Positions 9,440 through 24,482 of a DNA stretch of 64,000 nucleotides are shown in pieces. The stretch is from Leifsonia shinshuensis (GTDB taxonomy: Bacteria > Actinomycetota > Actinomycetes > Actinomycetales > Microbacteriaceae): NCBI RefSeq assembly GCF_022606355.1, contig NZ_JAHHZQ010000001.1, forward strand, positions 744,001 through 808,000. The letters run 5' to 3'. Within the stretch, counting starts at the first letter, position 1. Every line of letters starts with the position of its first letter. The notes below the pieces were generated by a model. It was given only the letters and a program-made list of their open reading frames with translations, was not told the origin of the DNA and did no database searches. Made by a program: the position numbers and the translations under genes.

Positions 9440-10080
9440 AGGGACGAGTAGCCGCTGTCGCCGGTGCTCGGCGCCGACGGCATCCGCAGCGGGATGAGGT
9501 CGCGCGGGGGCATCGGCACGTTGCCGCGCACCACGACGATGCTGCGGAAGAGATCCTCCACGAGCGCGGCGGCCTCCGGCTTGACGGCCGCGTCGCCGGC
9601 GATCACGCCGCGCAGGAACCAGCGAGGGCCGTCGACGCCCACGAACCGCGCGACCCGGGTCTCACCGGGCGCGCCCTGCGGAGGGGCGACGGGGATCTCG
9701 GCGACGAGCTCGGGACCGAAGACGCCGTCGCGCTCGCTGACCCGGCCGCCCTGGCGCTGCACCTGCTCCGCGATCTGTTCGCGGATCTCGTGCCACAGCC
9801 CGGTGGAGCGCGGTGCGGCGAACGGCTGCACCTGAAGGGTGGAGTTGGCGTAGTCGAGCCCGACCGCGACGACGCGCTGAGACTCCTCTTCGACCTCCAG
9901 CCGCAGGTGGAGGCCCTCGCGGGGCAGGATCTTGACGCCGCCGAGGTCGACATAGGGACGGACGGGGTTCGCCTCGCTCTCGTCGAGGGGACCTTCCGTC
10001 TCACGATCCTCCGGTGCGGACTTGTCCGCGTCCTGAGGAGCCGTGAGGTCCTCGCCCGGGGTGTCGCTGCTGTCGGTCAA
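9436..10080 (-). CDS. DUF3710 family protein
   Basis: 214 residues, soluble, with an acidic N-terminal tail followed by the conserved DUF3710 body (PYVDLGGVKILPREGLHLRLEVEE, then FVGVDGPRWFLRGVIAGDAA near the end). Function unknown. In actinobacteria it habitually follows dut, as here. The start is a TTG at 10080, chosen because AGGAGA lies 7 nt upstream and no ATG/GTG fits; this TTG overlaps the dut stop (TTGA). The 3' end overlaps DUF3159. Confidence 0.85.
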   Translation of the reverse strand: MTDSSDTPGEDLTAPQDADKSAPEDRETEGPLDESEANPVRPYVDLGGVKILPREGLHLRLEVEEESQRVVAVGLDYANSTLQVQPFAAPRSTGLWHEIREQIAEQVQRQGGRVSERDGVFGPELVAEIPVAPPQGAPGETRVARFVGVDGPRWFLRGVIAGDAAVKPEAAALVEDLFRSIVVVRGNVPMPPRDLIPLRMPSAPSTGDSGYSSL

Positions 10081-10535
10081 GCGTGTTCTCCTGCCTGGGT
10101 GACGGTGTAGCCGGACGAGCCGAAGCCCGCGCTGCCGCGGTGGCTGTCCGGAAGGGTGTCGACGGGGACGAACCGGGCCTGCACGACCGGCATGACGATC
10201 AGCTGGGCGATCCTGTCGCCGACGGCGATATCGTACGACATCGACCTGTCCGTATTCAGAACGGTCACCTTGATCTCGCCCCGGTAGCCGGCGTCCACCG
10301 TGCCAGGCGCGTTGACGATGGTGATGCCGTGCCGCATGGCGAGACCGCTGCGCGGCACGACGAAGCCGAGGTAGCCCTCGGGAAGGGCGATCGAGACGCC
10401 CGTGGCGACCGTGTAGCGCTCGCCGGGGGCCAGAGTGACGGCCTCCGCCGCGCACAGGTCGGCGCCGGCGTCACCGGGGTGGGCGTACGCCGGGAGATGC
10501 TGGGCGATGATCGGGACGTCCACGGTTTCGGTCAC
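10077..10535 (-). CDS. dut: dUTP diphosphatase (dUTPase)
   Basis: Hydrolyses dUTP to dUMP and diphosphate, keeping uracil out of DNA and feeding dTMP synthesis; homotrimer. 152 residues. All five trimeric dUTPase motifs are present: AGADLCA, PRSGLAM, GTVDAGYRGEI, GDRIAQLIV and RGSAGFGSSG, the last being the C-terminal lid. The start is GTG at 10535 (VTETVDVPI); the longer frame upstream is antisense to DUF3093. First gene of the four-gene operon that ends with the P-type ATPase. Confidence 0.96.
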   Translation of the reverse strand: MTETVDVPIIAQHLPAYAHPGDAGADLCAAEAVTLAPGERYTVATGVSIALPEGYLGFVVPRSGLAMRHGITIVNAPGTVDAGYRGEIKVTVLNTDRSMSYDIAVGDRIAQLIVMPVVQARFVPVDTLPDSHRGSAGFGSSGYTVTQAGEHA

Positions 10536-10574
10536 GTGTCGAGGGTAGTGCACGAAGGATGATCGAATAGGCCT

Positions 10575-11036
10575 ATGGACCTCTACCGCGAACGGCTCTG
10601 GGCGACCCCCTGGCTCTTCATCTCCACCATCCTCGTCGTGCCGGCCGTGCTTCTCGTTTTCGCCCCGATCAACTTCGCCGTCGGCGTGGTGCTGGCGATC
10701 GTCTTCTACGCCGCCATCGTGGTCGCACTGCTGGTCTCCGCTCCGGTCGTCCGGATCACGTCCGCCGAGCTGGTCGCGGGGCACGCGAGGATCCCCCTGG
10801 AGTTCATCGGCGAGCCGGTCGCCTTCCGGGGCGAGGAGGCGACGCTGGAGCGCGGCCAGCGGCTCGACGCCCGCGCCTGGCTGCTCATCCGCGGTTGGAT
10901 CAAGCCGGTCGTCAAGGTTCCGGTGCTCGACGTCGACGACCCCGCGCCCTACTGGCTGATCTCGACAAGAAACCCGGACCAGTTGGTCCGGGTTCTCGAT
11001 GAGGCCCGACGTTCCTCCAGCCCCCTCGGGGACTAG
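10575..11036 (+). CDS. DUF3093 family membrane protein
   Basis: 153 residues. Two close hydrophobic helices at the N-terminus (about residues 14-33 and 36-57), then a soluble beta-rich part with RITSAELVAGHARIP and AWLLIRGWIKPVVKVPVLDVDDPAPYW. This matches actinobacterial DUF3093; function unknown. It is divergent from dut with only 39 bp between starts. A perfect 10-bp hairpin (AACCCGGACC/GGTCCGGGTT, 10971-10994) lies inside its last codons. Confidence 0.85.
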   Translation: MDLYRERLWATPWLFISTILVVPAVLLVFAPINFAVGVVLAIVFYAAIVVALLVSAPVVRITSAELVAGHARIPLEFIGEPVAFRGEEATLERGQRLDARAWLLIRGWIKPVVKVPVLDVDDPAPYWLISTRNPDQLVRVLDEARRSSSPLGD

Positions 11037-11064
11037 TCGGCGTCGTAGCGGTGCGGTGCGTCGC

Positions 11065-11358
11065 TCAGGCGGCGCACTCCACGCAGATCGGTCCGAGCTT
11101 GCTCTCGTGGTCGATCTGCGAGCGGTGCTTCACCAGGAAGCAGCTCACGCAGGTGAACTCGTCAGCCTGAGGAGGCAGCACCACGACGTCGAGGTCGAGG
11201 TCCGACAGGTCGGCACCGGGGAGCTCGTAGCCGCCCGGGTTGTCGGCGTCTTCGACGTCGACGACACCAGACATCTTGTCCGGAACTCGCTCCTTGAGGG
11301 CCTCGATCGACTCGGAGTCGTCCTCGGTCTTCCGCGGTGCGTCGTAATCCGTTGCCAT
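11065..11358 (-). CDS. DUF4193 family small zinc-ribbon-like protein
   Basis: 97 residues starting MATDYDAPRKT (11358; an ATG two codons upstream is also possible). Highly acidic middle, then a C-terminal pair of CxxC motifs (CVSC and CVEC) that suggests one zinc ion. This is the actinobacterial DUF4193 family, function unknown, commonly near dut and sepH. It is divergent from sepH with 205 bp between starts; that gap contains a small CCGATT/AATCGG inverted repeat and otherwise only weak promoter-like sequence. Confidence 0.85.
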   Translation of the reverse strand: MATDYDAPRKTEDDSESIEALKERVPDKMSGVVDVEDADNPGGYELPGADLSDLDLDVVVLPPQADEFTCVSCFLVKHRSQIDHESKLGPICVECAA

Positions 11359-11563
11359 GCCCATCCACTTCTCGTCGTAACGGCCGATTCTCGCAATCGG
11401 CGGCCATAGTTTGCATCAATCCCCTGCGAATAGCAAAACCACGCAGGAGGCTCTCAGCGATTGCTCGGTCTTCAACTTCCGGCACGCCCGGGGTATTCCC
11501 CGGAAAGCCCCCGTTCTCGTGGCATTCTGGGCCGGAACGAACGCGAGCTCGGAAGGCATCACC

Positions 11564-16720: not shown

Positions 16721-18805
16721 CTACGCGTCGATGCGGGCGCGGGACAGGTCGTCGGCGCTCGCGATGAGGAACTCCTTGCGCGGGGCCACGTCGTTGCCCA
16801 TCAGCAGCTCGAACACGCGGTTCGCCGCCTCCGCGTCCGAGACGCGCACGCGGCGCAGCGTACGGTGCGCGCGGTCCATCGTCGTCGTCGCCAGCTGGTC
16901 CGCGTCCATCTCGCCGAGACCCTTGTAGCGCTGGATCGGCTCCTGGTACTTCCTGCCGCGCTTCTTCAGGTCGGCGAGCACGGCCTGCAGCTCCGCCTCG
17001 GAGTACGTGTAGATCGTCTCGTTGGGCTTCGAGCCGGGATTGATCGCCACCACGCGATGGAGCGGTGGCACGGCGGCGAACACCCGGCCCTCCTCGATCA
17101 TCGGCCGCATGTAGCGGAAGAACAGCGTGAGCAGCAGGGTGCGGATGTGCGCCCCGTCGACATCGGCGTCCGACATGATGATGACCTTGCCGTAGCGGGC
17201 GGAGCCGATCTCGAACGACCGGCCGGAACCCGCACCGATCACCTGGATGATCGCCGCGCACTCGGCATTCGACAGCATGTCGGACACGGAGGCCTTCTGC
17301 ACGTTCAGGATCTTGCCGCGAATCGGCAGCAGCGCCTGGTACTCGCTGTCGCGGGCGCGACGCGCGGTTCCGAGCGCCGAGTCGCCCTCCACGATGAACA
17401 GCTCGCTGTTCGCCACGTCGCTCGAGCGGCAGTCCACGAGCTTCGCGGGCAGCGAGGAGGTCTCCAGCGCGTTCTTGCGACGCTGCGTCTCCTTGTGCGC
17501 CCGTGCCGAGATCCGCGACTTCATCTCGGCGACGACCTTGTCGAGCACCAGCGCCGACTGCGTCTTGTCGTCGCGCTTCGACGACGAGAACCGCTCGGCC
17601 AGCGCCTTCTGGATCACGTTCGCGACGATGGTGCGCACCGCCGGGGTGCCCAGCACCTCCTTGGTCTGGCCCTCGAACTGCGGCTCGGGGAGGCGCACCG
17701 TGAGAACAGCGGTCAGTCCCGCCATCACGTCGTCCTTCTCGAGCTTGTCGGTCCCCGCCTTGAGCCGGCGCGCGTTCTGCTCGACCTGCTGGCGCAGGAA
17801 CTTGAGGAGTCCCTGGTCGAAGCCGGTCTGGTGGCTGCCGCCCTTGGGCGTCGCGATGATGTTGACGAACGACCGCATCACGGTGTCGTAGCCGGTGCCC
17901 CAGCGCAGCGCGATGTCGACCTGGCACTCGCGCTTGAGTTCGGTCGGCACCATCGCACCGCTGTCGGACAGCACGGGCACGGTCTCGGTGAAGTGGCCCT
18001 CGCCGGTGAGGCGCCAGGTCTCGGTGATCGGGCTGTCGGGCGCGAGGAAGTCCACGAACTCCGAGATACCGCCGTTGTAGCTGAAGGTGGTCCGCTCTCC
18101 CTCGGCCGAACGCTTGTCGTCGATCGTGATGGCGAGGCCCGGCACGAGGAACGCGGTCTGGCGGGCGCGACCGATCAGGTCGTCGACCGAGAACTCGGCT
18201 CCCTTCGTGAACACCTGGCGGTCGGCCCAGTAGCGGATGCGCGTGCCCGTCACACCCTTGGCGACCTTGCCGGCGATGCGCAGCTCGCTGCCGCTGACGA
18301 ACGGGGAGAAGGCGGCGTCCGGGCTCGGGGCGGCGGAGCCGTCGGCGAACACGCCGGGCTCGCCGCGGTGGAACGACATCGCCCAGGTCTTGCCGTCGCG
18401 GTCGACCTCCACGTCGAGTCGCTCGGACAGCGCGTTGACCACCGACGCACCGACGCCGTGGAGGCCGCCCGACGCCGCGTACGAACCGGTGCCGAACTTG
18501 CCGCCCGCGTGCAGCTTGGTGAACACGACCTCCACACCGGTCAGTCCGGTCTTCGGCTCGACGTCGACCGGGATGCCGCGCGCGGTGTCGCGGACCTCGA
18601 CGCTGTCGTCCGGGTGCAGGATGACCTCGATGGCACTGCCGTGCCCGGCCAGCGCCTCGTCGACGGAGTTGTCGATGATCTCCCACAGGCAGTGCATGAG
18701 GCCGCGCGAGTCGGTGGAGCCGATGTACATGCCCGGGCGCTTGCGCACCGCCTCCAGGCCCTCCAGCACCGAGAGGTGCCTCGCCGAATAGTCCGAGCTC
18801 GCCAC
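16721..18805 (-). CDS. parE: DNA topoisomerase IV subunit B
   Basis: ATPase subunit partnering ParC. 694 residues. GHKL ATPase domain with EIIDNSVDEAL and GGLHGVGASVVNAL, transducer domain, TOPRIM domain with EGDSALG and SDADVDGAHIRTLLL, and C-terminal YKGLGEM. The start is GTG at 18805 (VASSDYSARHL), with AAGGAG five bases upstream; an in-frame ATG at 18868 would add 21 residues unlike the family. Assignment as ParE rather than GyrB rests on its pairing with parC and absence of gyrA nearby. Confidence 0.9.
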   Translation of the reverse strand: MASSDYSARHLSVLEGLEAVRKRPGMYIGSTDSRGLMHCLWEIIDNSVDEALAGHGSAIEVILHPDDSVEVRDTARGIPVDVEPKTGLTGVEVVFTKLHAGGKFGTGSYAASGGLHGVGASVVNALSERLDVEVDRDGKTWAMSFHRGEPGVFADGSAAPSPDAAFSPFVSGSELRIAGKVAKGVTGTRIRYWADRQVFTKGAEFSVDDLIGRARQTAFLVPGLAITIDDKRSAEGERTTFSYNGGISEFVDFLAPDSPITETWRLTGEGHFTETVPVLSDSGAMVPTELKRECQVDIALRWGTGYDTVMRSFVNIIATPKGGSHQTGFDQGLLKFLRQQVEQNARRLKAGTDKLEKDDVMAGLTAVLTVRLPEPQFEGQTKEVLGTPAVRTIVANVIQKALAERFSSSKRDDKTQSALVLDKVVAEMKSRISARAHKETQRRKNALETSSLPAKLVDCRSSDVANSELFIVEGDSALGTARRARDSEYQALLPIRGKILNVQKASVSDMLSNAECAAIIQVIGAGSGRSFEIGSARYGKVIIMSDADVDGAHIRTLLLTLFFRYMRPMIEEGRVFAAVPPLHRVVAINPGSKPNETIYTYSEAELQAVLADLKKRGRKYQEPIQRYKGLGEMDADQLATTTMDRAHRTLRRVRVSDAEAANRVFELLMGNDVAPRKEFLIASADDLSRARIDA

Positions 18806-18961
18806 GAGCGCTCCTTGTGTTCCGTGCCTGTTCCGTGCGCACCCGCTACCGATCGGGGCGCCGTGCATCCTCCAGAGTATGCGGTGCGCGGGGTGAACCC
18901 GCGATCGACACCCGCGGGGCCGGAGGCTACGCGTTGAGCGAAATAGCAGCCAATACGCGCC

Positions 18962-19029: not shown

Positions 19030-19266
19030 ATGTCTACTATCACCTCGGAGAACGGTGCGGTTGACGAGCTCGAGTCGGGGCCGCAACTGACGGCCGCGGA
19101 CCGCTGCGACAGCTGTGGCGCTCAGGCGTACATCCGCGTCGTCGTCAACAACGGCGAACTCCTCTTCTGCGCCCACCACGGCAAGAAGCACCAGGAGAAG
19201 CTCTCGCAGATCGCGCACAGCTGGCACGACGAGACCGCGCGTCTCTTCGAAGAGCAGCGCGCCTAG
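19030..19266 (+). CDS. DUF7455 family small zinc-binding-type protein
   Basis: 78 residues. Core LTAADRCDSCGAQAYIRVVVNNGELLFCAHH: a CxxC pair plus a downstream Cys and His-His that could bind one zinc. This is a conserved actinobacterial small protein of unknown function, often found close to sigA. A good promoter (18962-18990) and AAGGAG precede the ATG. Next to it on the same strand is the first alanine-racemase-like gene. Confidence 0.85.
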   Translation: MSTITSENGAVDELESGPQLTAADRCDSCGAQAYIRVVVNNGELLFCAHHGKKHQEKLSQIAHSWHDETARLFEEQRA

Positions 19267-19314: not shown

Positions 19315-20043
19315 ATGGCAGGAGCCACCGGCGTGCGCAGACGCGCATTCGTCGATCTCGATGCCATCCGCTCCAACCTCTCCGCTGCCGCCCCCGCACC
19401 ACTCCCCGACTGCACCGCCGATCTCCGCGCCGACGCGTACGGCCACGGGCTCATCCCCGTGGCGCGTGCGCTGACGGACGCGGGGGTCGGCGGTTTTCTC
19501 GTCTCCCGGGTCGAGGACGCCTCTGCCCTGGCGGATGCCGGCATCCCCGTTCCCGCGCGTGCGGGGGCGCCCGCCGGCCGGCACGCGAGCGGCGCTCAGA
19601 ACCTGCTCGGTCCGGAGATCCTCGGTCTCGACGCTTCCCGTTCGGCCACGCCCGCCCTCCGGTTGACGGCCGAGGTCATCGCCGTCAAGCGTGTGGGCGC
19701 CGACCGCGGCGTGTCGTACGGCTACACGTACCGCACCGAGCGGCCGAGCACGCTCGTGCTGGTCGCACTCGGTTATGCCGACGGGATCCTGCGGGTCGCT
19801 TCGAACAAGGCGCCCGTACTCGTCGGCGAGACGACGGGGCGCATCACGGGCCGCATCGCCATGGACCAGTTCGTGGTCGACATCGCCGACGCCGACGCCG
19901 CCACCGGCGATCCGGTCGTCCTGTTCGGCGACCCGGCCCGCGGCGAACCCGCCGCCACCGACTGGGCGGCCGCGCTCGGCGTCGCCGCGCCCGTCATCAC
20001 GAGCCGGCTCGGCCGGCGTATCGAACGGGTCTACGCAGCGTGA
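19315..20043 (+). CDS. Truncated alanine-racemase paralogue lacking the PLP lysine
   Basis: 242 residues against about 370 for alanine racemase. The N-terminal strand and DLRADAYGHG motif are present but the PLP-binding Lys is Arg38. After residue 85 the middle of the TIM barrel is missing and the chain resumes at the last barrel strand (GPEILGLD). The C-terminal beta domain is complete, with catalytic Tyr135 in GVSYGYTY and Met183 in RIAMDQ. Alone it cannot be a racemase. A GTG at 19333, with GGAG 8 nt upstream, is an equally good start (236 aa). The full-barrel partner follows after 37 bp. It is either a pseudoenzyme or one half of a heterodimer; clean frame and conserved motifs argue against a pseudogene. 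Confidence 0.85.
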   Translation: MAGATGVRRRAFVDLDAIRSNLSAAAPAPLPDCTADLRADAYGHGLIPVARALTDAGVGGFLVSRVEDASALADAGIPVPARAGAPAGRHASGAQNLLGPEILGLDASRSATPALRLTAEVIAVKRVGADRGVSYGYTYRTERPSTLVLVALGYADGILRVASNKAPVLVGETTGRITGRIAMDQFVVDIADADAATGDPVVLFGDPARGEPAATDWAAALGVAAPVITSRLGRRIERVYAA

Positions 20044-20080
20044 CCTTCGACCACCACCGACCGACGAGGAGCGCGAGCGC

Positions 20081-21157
20081 ATGACCATCGTGGACGCGAT
20101 CGCCGAACCCCTCCCCCGCGCGGTCATCGACCTGGCGGCCCTCCGCCGAAACGTGGCGCATCTCACTGAGCTCATCGCCCCGGCGCAGACCATGCTCGCG
20201 GTGAAGGCCGATGCGTACGGCCACGGGCTGATCCCGATCGCGGAGGCCGGGCTGGAGGCCGGCGCGACCTCTCTCGCCGTCCTGGAGGTGCCGGCCGGGC
20301 TGGTGCTGCGCAGCGCGGGCATCACCGTGCCGATGCTGGCGTGGTTGCACGGCCGCGACACCGACTGGCGCGCCGCGATCGAGGCCGACATCGAGCTCGG
20401 CATCTCCGCCGTCTGGCAGCTCGAGGCGATCGAGGAAGCCGGCGCCGACCGGCCGGCGGTCGTCCACCTCAAGGTCGACACCGGGCTCAGCCGCAACGGC
20501 GCCACCCGAGAAGACTGGCCGCACCTGATCGACGCCGCTCTCGACCTGGAGCGGCGCGGGATCGTCCGCATCCGCGCCGCGTGGTCGCACCTGGCCGACG
20601 CCTCCATCGCCGACGACGAAGCCGCCCTGGCGGAGTTCCGCAGCGCGGTCGCCGAGGCGGAGGAGCGCGGCGCACGGTTCGAGGTGCTGCACCTCGCGGC
20701 CAGCTCCGCGGGCATCCGCATGCCGGAGGCTCGCTTCGACTTCGTGCGGTTCGGGATCGCCGCCTACGGCTTCTCGCCGTTCGACGACAGCACGGGAGCG
20801 GAGCTGGGGCTGGAGGCCGTCATGCGACTGGAGGCGCCGGTCACCGAGGTGCACGTCGCCGGCACCACCCGGGCGCGACTCGCGATCGGCTACGGCGACG
20901 GCGTCCCGACGCTCGGGATCGCCAAGACGTCGGTGCTGCTGGCCGGCCGCCGCTGCCCGGTGATGGCGGTGGAGGTCGACTCCATGCTCGTCGACGCCGG
21001 CTCCGCTCGTGTGAACGTCGGCGATACGGCCGTGCTGTTCGGCACCGGCCGCTCCGGTGACGTCACCGCAGAGAAGTACGCCGACTGGGCCGAGACCATC
21101 GCCGACGAGATGGTCACCGGCGTCGCCTCACGCGTGCCCCGCGTCTACGTCAACTGA
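20081..21157 (+). CDS. alr: Alanine-racemase homologue with PLP lysine but no catalytic-tyrosine loop
   Basis: 358 residues, fold-type III PLP enzyme. The barrel is complete: Lys42 in VKADAYGHG, Arg138 in DTGLSRNG, His170 in WSHLADAS, and VRFGIAAYG. In the C-terminal domain the segment that should hold VSYGxTY is absent: VTEVHVAG (to 261) runs straight into TTRARLAIGYGDG, a deletion of about 12 residues. The MDQ motif that reaches the partner active site reads VDS (299-301). The residues a partner subunit supplies in trans are thus missing here and present in the preceding gene. GAGGAG precedes the ATG. Confidence 0.9.
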   Translation: MTIVDAIAEPLPRAVIDLAALRRNVAHLTELIAPAQTMLAVKADAYGHGLIPIAEAGLEAGATSLAVLEVPAGLVLRSAGITVPMLAWLHGRDTDWRAAIEADIELGISAVWQLEAIEEAGADRPAVVHLKVDTGLSRNGATREDWPHLIDAALDLERRGIVRIRAAWSHLADASIADDEAALAEFRSAVAEAEERGARFEVLHLAASSAGIRMPEARFDFVRFGIAAYGFSPFDDSTGAELGLEAVMRLEAPVTEVHVAGTTRARLAIGYGDGVPTLGIAKTSVLLAGRRCPVMAVEVDSMLVDAGSARVNVGDTAVLFGTGRSGDVTAEKYADWAETIADEMVTGVASRVPRVYVN

Positions 21158-21170
21158 CCCGCCGCCGGCG

Positions 21171-21887
21171 TCAGAGCGAGACGCTGAGCCGGTCGGCGAT
21201 CGCGCGGCGGGCGTTGGTGGCGTAGCGGTCGACACGCTCGGTCTGCGAGACCGGCGGCAGCTCGCCGCGAACGGCGGTCTGCAGCATCCGGTCGGCGAGC
21301 ACCGGGTTCATCGGCAGCACCGGACCGTGCAGGTGCGTCCCGATCGCGCTGCCGATGACGACCCCCTCCGTGCGGTCGCCGTTGCCGAAGCCGCTCACGA
21401 CGGTGCCCAGAGGCTCGCCGCCCTGGAGCGTCGTGGTCGCGGAGTGGTTCTCGAACCCGGCGAGGGTGAGGCCGTCCCGTGTCGTCACGACGACCTCGGC
21501 GACATGGCGGCGCGAGCCGAGCACGGCGCGCGTGGGGAAGACTCCCGCACCCGCGAGCGTCTCGCCCTCCGGCGTCACGATCTCGGTGCCGAGCAGCTGC
21601 CAGCCTCCCGCGATCGCGAGGATGGGCACACCCGCATCGCGCCACTGCCGCAGCTGCGGGGCGATGCGTGCCACGTCGCCCGCGACCGCGCGCTGCGACG
21701 AGAGCGGGCCGGAGCCGATGTGCACGATGTCCACGCTGGTGGGGAGTTCGCCGCCCGGCGCGTGAGTGACGACCTCCGCCTCCACGCCCCGCCAGCGGGC
21801 ACGCTCGGCGAGGGCCAGCACGTTGCCGGCGTCACCGTTGATCCCGAGTTCGCGCGGGTAGAGGTGGAGGATGCGCAAGACGCTCAC
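21171..21887 (-). CDS. gatD: GatD-like type 1 glutamine amidotransferase with Cys-to-Ala nucleophile
   Basis: GatD with MurT normally amidates D-Glu of lipid II using ammonia from glutamine. This 238-residue protein has the family frame (LRILHLYPRELGINGDAGN; GTHLHGPVLPMNP with dyad His187), but the nucleophile elbow, usually AICGGYQ, reads AIAGGWQ: Ala93 replaces the Cys. The substrate-side GGxxDREQ motif is also changed, to IGSGPLSSQ. Glutaminase activity is therefore not expected. It starts with GTG overlapping the murT stop by 4 nt, so the pair is co-translated. Convergent with the alr-like pair, 13 bp apart. Confidence 0.9.
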   Translation of the reverse strand: MSVLRILHLYPRELGINGDAGNVLALAERARWRGVEAEVVTHAPGGELPTSVDIVHIGSGPLSSQRAVAGDVARIAPQLRQWRDAGVPILAIAGGWQLLGTEIVTPEGETLAGAGVFPTRAVLGSRRHVAEVVVTTRDGLTLAGFENHSATTTLQGGEPLGTVVSGFGNGDRTEGVVIGSAIGTHLHGPVLPMNPVLADRMLQTAVRGELPPVSQTERVDRYATNARRAIADRLSVSL

Positions 21888-23158
21888 GAAGCACCGCCTT
21901 CCAGGTCGAGGAAGCCCAGCTGCTTGCGGATCGCCATCATCTGCTCGTAGTTCACGATCATCGTCTTGGTGCCACGCGCCGGTTTGGGCAGCGCCAGGAA
22001 CGCCTGCAGCGCGGGCTTGAGCTCGGGCATCACCTGGTCGACCTCGATGCCGGCGTAGGCGAACCGGGTGGCGAACTGCCAGGCCTTCGTGCCCGACACG
22101 ATGTCGACGTGCTCCAGCTTGGAGAGGTCGATGTCGTACACCCAGGACGGATCGGGCGTGCCCTCGTCGACGGAGACGAAGAGCTGCTCCGGGCTGTGGC
22201 TCAGGTAGTCGAGGTTGAGCTGCAGGCTCGGCGGGTTCTTCATCATGATGATCTCGATGTCCTCGTCGCCGACCCGCAGCGTCTCGCCGCGGCCGTAGAC
22301 CGTGCGGAGCGAGCCCATGGCCGCGACCACGGCCTCCGAGCGGAAGTCGTCGCCCAGCACCCGACGCGCCGTCGCCGTCGCTCCGGCCGCGTCCACCGCA
22401 TAGTGGAGGCCGCGCGCGGGAAGGCCGATGCGGAGGGACTCACCGCCGATGGTCAGCTGTGCGCTCTGGGTCTCCAGCTTGCTGACGAAGACGGCGGGCA
22501 CCGGCAGTGCACCAGCAGCGGCACCGGAGAAGTCGGTGACGTTGGCGAGGCCGTTCGGCGACGACTCGATGATCGCAGGGGCGACGGCGAACGTGGTGAC
22601 GTCCCGCCCCTCGGCGGCGAGCTCCGCGCCGACGCGCGCCAGGCTGTCGTCATCGGCGTTCACCACGACGAACTCACCGGAGCGCTCCGCGATGGTGCGG
22701 AGCATCCCGATGACGCGGGTGGGCTCGAAGAACCGGTTGAGCTGGTCGATCTGAACGTTGAGCAGCAGGGAGCCCCGGGGCTTGAGCACCGTCGCCAGGT
22801 CGACGCCGTAGGCCTCGTCGACCTCGATGACGCCGACGTCGCCGCGCACGTACCCGTCGAGCGGAACGTCCGCCAGCAGAGCCGAGGCGATCCCCTGCGG
22901 GAGGTTGCCTCCGGACGGGTTCGTGAAGACGTTCAGACCGTGCTCGCGCAGGATCGCCGTGAGCATGTTCGTCGTGGTCGACTTGCCGTTCGACCCGGAG
23001 ACGAAGACGACGCCGAGCGGAAGGCGGCTGACCGCACGCTCCAGGAACTTGGGCGCGATCGCGAGCGCGACCCGTCCCGGCACCGCGGAGCCGCCTCCCC
23101 GCAGGCGCAGAAGCCAGCGGGCGAGGCGGCCGGCGATGACCGCCAGTCGATAGCGCAC
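21884..23158 (-). CDS. murT: MurT-like Mur ligase without the zinc ribbon
   Basis: Mur-ligase-fold ATPase, 424 residues. P-loop VSGSNGKSTTTNML (GSNGKST at 55-61), VIEVDEAYGVDL, IDQLNRFFEP, and a C-terminal DUF1727 domain with DPSWVYDIDL, where the catalytic-region Asp of MurT is retained. MurT proteins carry a Cys4 zinc ribbon inserted in the central domain (CPxCG...CxCG); here that region (about 195-235) is AlaGly-rich and the whole protein has no cysteine. The GTG start at 23158 lies one base after the sigA stop and has no visible Shine-Dalgarno, so it depends on sigA translation. Forms a unit with gatD. Confidence 0.88.
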   Translation of the reverse strand: MRYRLAVIAGRLARWLLRLRGGGSAVPGRVALAIAPKFLERAVSRLPLGVVFVSGSNGKSTTTNMLTAILREHGLNVFTNPSGGNLPQGIASALLADVPLDGYVRGDVGVIEVDEAYGVDLATVLKPRGSLLLNVQIDQLNRFFEPTRVIGMLRTIAERSGEFVVVNADDDSLARVGAELAAEGRDVTTFAVAPAIIESSPNGLANVTDFSGAAAGALPVPAVFVSKLETQSAQLTIGGESLRIGLPARGLHYAVDAAGATATARRVLGDDFRSEAVVAAMGSLRTVYGRGETLRVGDEDIEIIMMKNPPSLQLNLDYLSHSPEQLFVSVDEGTPDPSWVYDIDLSKLEHVDIVSGTKAWQFATRFAYAGIEVDQVMPELKPALQAFLALPKPARGTKTMIVNYEQMMAIRKQLGFLDLEGGAS

Positions 23159-23159
23159 T

Positions 23160-24482
<1,323 letters not shown>

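Follow-up and report, generated by a model that had tools for sequence, protein, structure and literature searches.

Complementary partial alanine racemases in Leifsonia shinshuensis and other Microbacteriaceae as putative subunits of one heterodimeric enzyme

Two adjacent genes of Leifsonia shinshuensis, each encoding an incomplete alanine racemase (Alr) and here called A and B, very likely specify the two subunits of a single alanine-racemase-type PLP enzyme that would function as an obligate heterodimer (probability approximately 0.92). Our data show that the losses in the two proteins are reciprocal, that the genes are inherited together, that both are under selection, that they occur as natural fusions and that some genomes carry them with no other racemase found. 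The complex and its activity are inferred, with neither a complex model nor an assay behind them, but the two halves are very probably one enzyme because the same division recurs across the family and because some genomes have it with no alternative version found. The genes lie in a 64,000-nucleotide stretch of contig NZ_JAHHZQ010000001.1, the whole of which is here called the window. The original prediction, made before any database search, was aware of no split alanine racemase in the literature; none was found by us in the open-access literature searched, be it split, heterodimeric or single-chain (most subscription papers were outside this scope), and the main text of PMC2447455 mentions none of the three.

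Textbooks present Alr as a homodimeric PLP enzyme, and it is a target for drugs. If our reading is correct, many genera of one family would hold a natural graded series of a homodimer turning obligately heteromeric, the separate genes would allow one to ask how many active sites are needed, and the drug target in some organisms would be a two-protein interface. It would then be misleading to annotate the two genes as distinct enzymes, one as 'alanine racemase' and the other as 'alanine racemase C-terminal domain protein'.

Reciprocal residue losses in the two genes

Gene A (19315..20043, + strand), defined by its open reading frame, Pfam domains and AF2 model, encodes a putative C-domain donor subunit of 242 aa, which keeps roughly 80 residues at the start of the barrel, has the middle of the barrel deleted and retains a complete C-terminal domain. 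Only positions 1-71 of the 220 in the Pfam profile Ala_racemase_N are matched (E 5.3e-11), and the match to Ala_racemase_C is complete (1-127, E 4.8e-34). Where the PLP lysine would be expected the protein has Arg38 (19426..19428, + strand; motif DLRADAYGHG). Tyr135 (19717..19719, + strand; motif VSYGYTY) we take to be the trans catalytic base, Tyr265 in the numbering of G. stearothermophilus Alr, and Met183 (19861..19863, + strand; motif AMDQ) corresponds to the trans residue Met312. The single-chain AF2 model (pLDDT 92.4, pTM 0.87) has Alr as its best structural match (VIA-align against S. coelicolor Alr 5fag; Z 25.6, rmsd 2.2, 238 residues).

Gene B (20081..21157, + strand), defined by the same three lines of evidence, encodes a putative catalytic-barrel subunit of 358 aa with a full barrel, including the PLP lysine, and a C-terminal domain without the catalytic-Tyr loop. 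The full Ala_racemase_N profile is matched (1-220, E 8.4e-53), and Ala_racemase_C, a profile of 127 positions, is matched no earlier than position 32 (E 1.2e-18). Lys42 (20204..20206, + strand; motif VKADAYGHG) is the equivalent of Lys39, which forms the Schiff base to PLP. The VSYxYTY loop is absent near residues 257-261 (20849..20866, + strand), and the codons of residues 299-301 (20975..20983, + strand) read VDS in place of MDQ. Its model (AF2, single chain; pLDDT 92.1, pTM 0.89) also has Alr as its best structural match (1vfh; Z 45.2, rmsd 1.7, 352 residues). The original prediction had described exactly these two frames, with Arg38, Tyr135 and Met183 in the first and Lys42, a lost loop and VDS in the second, and each of these points held.

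Both proteins share with the Alr/DadX enzymes (PF01168 + PF00842, TIGR00492) the fold, the PLP lysine motif and the trans Tyr and Met, but neither chain of the window's pair carries the lysine and the Tyr265 loop together: K39 is present in B and not in A, and the cut-off of TIGR00492, the NCBI alr equivalog model (168 bits), is passed by B alone (197.8 bits), with A below it (136.7 bits). A homodimer with two active sites is disfavoured for the window's pair, an inference drawn from sequence alone. When A and B were compared with the canonical Alr of their own genome, their losses were reciprocal. In the solved AlrTt structure, the partner subunit brings Tyr268', Tyr287', Arg293' and Asp317' to the active site, to which the site's own chain contributes Lys40 and Arg138 (PMC4517790); we take these six to be residues 265, 284, 290, 313, 39 and 136, respectively. 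An intact site in AlrTt requires the homodimer, in which each chain carries both residue sets (PMC4517790), whereas in the pair the sets are divided over two chains or fused halves.

The same division is found throughout the relatives. Once duplicates had been removed, the residue count covered 99 rows of A and 100 of B, representing 99 distinct pairs or fusions from Microbacteriaceae (L189 was excluded, as were L191, which is the same gene as L185, the duplicate L144 and 12 duplicates of named and unnamed loci; L210, L212-L215, L217, L219 and L220, read by BLAST or by eye only, lie outside the count). The PLP lysine is present in 0 of the 94 readable A rows, which have R, T, S, A, G, D or P instead, and Tyr265 (99/99), Met312 (99/99) and Arg290 (98/99) are kept; at Tyr284, the entry-channel tyrosine, 90 A rows have Y and nine have F. 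The B rows keep Lys39 (100/100), Arg136 (100/100), His166 (98/98 readable) and Arg219 (98/98) and have lost Tyr265 in every case (98 gaps, two Gly), with no [VI]SY[GC] motif in any of the 100 B sequences. Met312 survives in one of 96 readable B rows (L163), and Arg290 in seven of 95; this last residue, which the original prediction had not named, thus also fits the trans pattern. Ordinary Alr proteins in the same alignment (29 alr1 and eight alr2, with the distant second Alr-like gene L003 excluded) have K39, R136, H166, R219, Y265, R290, M312 and D313 in 37/37. The claim that the losses are exactly reciprocal therefore held in the 99 pairs or fusions, with a partial exception at Asp313, where 75 of the 96 readable B rows retain the aspartate. 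A heterodimer predicts that A should retain the trans residues and B the cis residues, each having lost the other set; this is fulfilled apart from the partial exception, and the reciprocity is more than chance because it recurs in 99 pairs or fusions with all 37 ordinary Alr intact. Tyr354, considered as a further cis residue, was dropped because the aligned column varies in ordinary Alr as well.

Both genes of the pair are under purifying selection: over seven named Leifsonia loci, the ratios of computed dN and dS were 0.16-0.37 for A and 0.08-0.23 for B, and the pair is present in 5/5 sampled Leifsonia genomes, including its own. The relaxed selection that would mark a pair of pseudogenes was not seen. 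The original prediction would have been refuted by a complete alr elsewhere in the genome accompanied by a pair degenerate in, or absent from, close relatives; such an alr was found (at C7), but the pair is neither.

Distribution, locus forms and ancestry of the halves

Co-occurrence of the two genes across Microbacteriaceae had been proposed as a check, and it was met in two scans. B was adjacent to A, or fused to it (L057), in all 35 A-type loci fetched from an A-driven scan of 249 family genomes (B extends past the contig end in L058 and L071), and it lay directly downstream of A in 40/40 loci of a scan of named genomes with A N-terminal parts (a contig end cuts B in L106). Of these 40 loci, 37 are labelled as Microbacteriaceae or as genera taken to be members; the other three bear the labels Acidobacteria (L104), Actinomycetes (L106) and Actinomycetota (L112). 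To counter any bias from querying with A, a B-driven scan was added, of which only the 29 fetched loci were checked: in 26 of them A lies next to B or is fused to it, L160 and L170 are ordinary alr1, and in L143 a contig end truncates the locus but leaves part of A visible. A census of one genome per genus placed a pair or fusion in at least 29 of 85 genera (G012, G015 and G037 were assigned by reading their loci). Among the matches of an order-wide scan down to E 1.6e-45 (396 genomes, 362 from other families; its loci L192-L201 excluded from reading) no A-type protein was found outside the family. Broken frames were seen in L093 (Homoserinibacter gongjuensis; the end of A and B) and in L111 (MAG UBA6152; B), from either sequencing error or real decay.

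One chain carries both halves in 12 genomes, as A-B fusions (L057, in which the N and the C profile each match twice, and L149), B-A fusions (L181-L185, L210) or B-A-TsaE fusions (L187-L190), and in the last of these A is reduced to part of the C domain with its trans motifs retained. The wide distribution of the pair, its natural fusions and the genomes in which no other racemase was found go beyond what had been predicted. The loci take five forms: (i) an intact tandem alr1-alr2 at glmS-acpS-x-tsaE (L114-L117, L120, L128, L137, L138; L216 was counted as such by BLAST only); (ii) 13 pairs with an A of 314-384 aa, whose barrel persists in decayed form and lacks the lysine; (iii) pairs with the A barrel deleted, the window's included; (iv) single-chain A-B or B-A proteins; and (v) B-A-TsaE. 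These may represent successive evolutionary stages, a possibility in which the order itself is an inference. The genus g50 loci (L187-L190, L207, L208) place the racemase halves and TsaE (tRNA t6A ATPase) in one frame of approximately 620-660 aa, a triple fusion that joins unrelated functions. In L128 (2581-5010, 809 aa) and L137 (919-3492, 857 aa), alr2 and the tsaE region downstream of it lie in a single open frame; these frames raise the possibility of alr2-TsaE fusions in other genera.

Upstream of the window's pair lies a type II topoisomerase B subunit gene (16721..18868, - strand), called ParE here although the models cannot separate ParE from GyrB, which adjoins the pair in many relatives. 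Between the two, here and in many relatives, is a DUF7455 protein of unknown function (19030..19266, + strand; PF24254, E 1.8e-24). Convergent with the pair are GatD- and MurT-like genes (21171..23248, - strand) for lipid II glutamate amidation, for which GatD and MurT are the best NCBIfam models, yet under their equivalog cut-offs, and which contain the Pfam domains GATase_3, Mur_ligase_M and MurT_C. Window-type pairs usually lie between ParE and a GatD-MurT/SigA block, and every window-type locus with flanks read shows at least one of ParE, DUF7455, GatD, MurT and SigA. In L074, approximately 1.6 kb (9843-11428) is additional between B and GatD relative to the arrangement of the window. Genus g77 has a second pair (L059, L060, L065, L069) at glmS-acpS-x-tsaE, which is the canonical alr place elsewhere, and the eight B-A fusions with longer flanks read (L202-L208, L210) are at this place also.

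The barrels at the two chromosomal places appear to be of separate ancestry. In barrel trees the ParE-place B cluster with alr2 (99/91; 100/99 in another tree) and the acpS-place B do not; the tandem alr2 barrel, for its part, is closer to ParE-place B than it is to alr1. AU tests rejected trees in which the B of g77, of g21/G136 or of g50 was held with ParE-place B (p 6.6e-8, 7.8e-4 and 3.0e-3, respectively), and a single origin of all B barrels was rejected with them. These tests used a reduced set of 48 rows (without the seven full-length A rows, B_L186, B_L065, B_L151, B_L147b, B_L168 and alr1_L135), and their groups were defined with a tree already in view, which is a caveat of the test. 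Several alternatives were not rejected on the same set: the g77 second-pair barrel B' as sister to alr2 + B (p 0.37), the other placement being with alr1; the acpS-place B of g77, g21/G136 and g50 as one clade (p 0.13); and ParE-place B alone as one clade (p 0.21), so that alr2 may be either sister to ParE-place B or nested in it.

The AU results thus support separate origins for the barrels and do not settle the matter for A. In the C-domain tree, 60 A cluster with alr1 (100/92) and the four g77 A' fall outside; the grouping of ParE-place A with alr1 depends on the position of the root, and the outgroup row is a long branch. If right, this tree would make the ParE and acpS places mirror images, which is no more than possible given that one clade of all A, ParE-place and acpS-place together, was not rejected (p 0.42). 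The same tree places g77 B' inside B (98/96), contrary to its barrel, which we read, without proof, as an attraction of decayed C domains.

These data are compatible with a bolder reading, which we regard as likely when its parts are taken jointly: complementary decay within Microbacteriaceae would have turned Alr into an obligate heterodimer on more than one occasion, with the ParE-place barrel derived from the alr2 lineage and the acpS-tsaE-place barrel from another, nearer to alr1 in the trees. The series would run from the intact tandem alr1-alr2 through a full-length, decayed A barrel and a deleted barrel to enzymes with one site on a single chain, some of them joined to TsaE as well, and the product would be the sole alanine racemase in several lineages, probably including Tropheryma whipplei.

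Proposed mechanism and genomes with no other racemase found

The original prediction that the pair could form one competent site per heterodimer is supported by the sequences; the physical complex, its activity and its substrate are inferred. In the mechanism that we propose, B would supply the barrel, with PLP on Lys42 and the cofactor held by Arg, His and Arg residues, and A would complete the site from the other side of the dimer interface, its C-terminal domain contributing Tyr135 as second catalytic base together with Met183, the counterpart of Arg290 and the entry-channel Tyr. A 1:1 heterodimer would then have one competent active site, against two in a homodimer, and the second site, formed of the A barrel and the B C domain, would have decayed because nothing selects for it. 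The N-terminal remnant of A, with its xADAYGHG motif preserved even where R, T, S or A replaces K, is inferred to pack on the C domain of B, probably as the lost half did.

Such an organisation has a precedent in serine palmitoyltransferase SPT1/SPT2, a heterodimer with one presumed site and the PLP lysine from one subunit, whose relatives are homodimers (PMC6148460). SPT1/SPT2 is a PLP enzyme of fold type I. One subunit without the lysine, another with it and their joint inheritance are features that the pair also meets, by analogy and not by kinship: fold and reaction are unrelated, in the pair, most of the A barrel has gone as well, and the two halves also occur on single chains. VanT-type serine racemases (NF033131) have the same domains and sequence similarity to the pair, but their cut-off of 460 bits is far above the scores of B (157.9) and A (118.5). 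The 'monomeric' alanine racemases of Shigella associate weakly and their activity depends on dimer formation, which occurs upon addition of substrate or inhibitor (PMC4517790). The two chains of those dimers are identical.

No other Ala_racemase_C protein was found by Pfam search in 14 genomes that carry a pair or fusion (G077, G140, G192, G238; G020, G100, G161, G211; G049, G119, G174, G223; G136; G015). The four g77 genomes have four Ala_racemase_C matches each, which are A, B, A' and B', and a search with Ala_racemase_N added no complete Alr to them. The four g50 genomes each have one or two further full-length Ala_racemase_N proteins (frames of 362-402 aa) without Ala_racemase_C, and G020 and YggS-like places elsewhere likewise have Ala_racemase_N matches and no Ala_racemase_C match. 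No D-amino-acid transaminase was found above the curated cut-off in any of the 14, and sub-threshold aminotransferase matches occur in 13 of them. G015, a single contig of 927,303 bases with 46.2% G+C in the stretch read, we take to be Tropheryma whipplei Twist; Tropheryma has approximately 46% G+C and is sister to Microbacteriaceae (PMC6113628). Its one pair, at the ParE-GatD place as in the window and orthologous to the window's pair, is the sole Alr-type protein found, so the orthologues are likely to supply D-alanine there, other routes to D-alanine not being excluded. Alanine racemisation is thus inferred because some genomes have no other Alr found, and between alanine and another wall amino acid, the two substrates originally proposed, we favour alanine as the likely substrate of the window's pair.

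Substrate and alternative explanations

The strongest alternative accepts the heterodimer and assigns another substrate to the window's pair, which would racemise a different wall amino acid (2,4-diaminobutyrate, ornithine or lysine) and leave D-alanine to the complete alr. This is possible. In the own genome (G000), a complete canonical alr with every catalytic residue present stands between acpS and tsaE at C7. Another complete Alr-like gene, at C5 (L003 21-2187), lies away from the canonical alr and adjoins a D-Ala-D-Ala-ligase-like gene, so the pair is not the sole racemase candidate there and its substrate may differ. Ten further pair-carrying genomes with the alr place read also keep a complete alr1, D-Orn and D-Lys are diamino acids of some Microbacteriaceae genera and DAB of others (PMC7033078), and lipid II amidation genes adjoin the pair. 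Against this, G015 yielded no Alr-type protein other than the ParE-place pair, so that orthologues of the window's pair most likely supply D-alanine there, and the trans residues retained in A are those of ordinary Alr.

It is very unlikely that B alone is active as a Tyr-less homodimer with A as a mere regulator or stabiliser. In its favour, B passes TIGR00492 by itself and most B rows retain Asp313, but this reading leaves unexplained why Tyr265 and Met312 are invariant in 99/99 A proteins while the A barrel decays, and the fusions unite both halves on one chain, with the A of g50 reduced to part of a C domain that still has the Tyr and Met motifs. We also consider it very improbable that A, B or both partner the canonical Alr of the same cell and not each other: the own genome does encode an Alr able in principle to exchange subunits, but A and B are adjacent, co-inherited, sometimes fused, and present in genomes with no canonical Alr found. 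Finally, a functionless, decaying duplicate pair, suggested by the large deletion in A, the complete alr and the broken frames in two loci, is all but excluded by the low dN/dS of both genes, their presence in every Leifsonia genome sampled and catalytic residues invariant in 99 pairs, and this pseudogene reading was dropped because of selection and residue invariance.

The alternatives aside, the heterodimer remains our preferred reading of the window's pair. The own genome holds other genes of related type: the C5 Alr-like gene and its ligase-like neighbour could possibly form a separate D-amino-acid cassette, and at C4 (L004 1027-2337) there is an Alr-like protein distant from Alr, with neighbours that by eye are an amino-acid permease and an IclR-type regulator.
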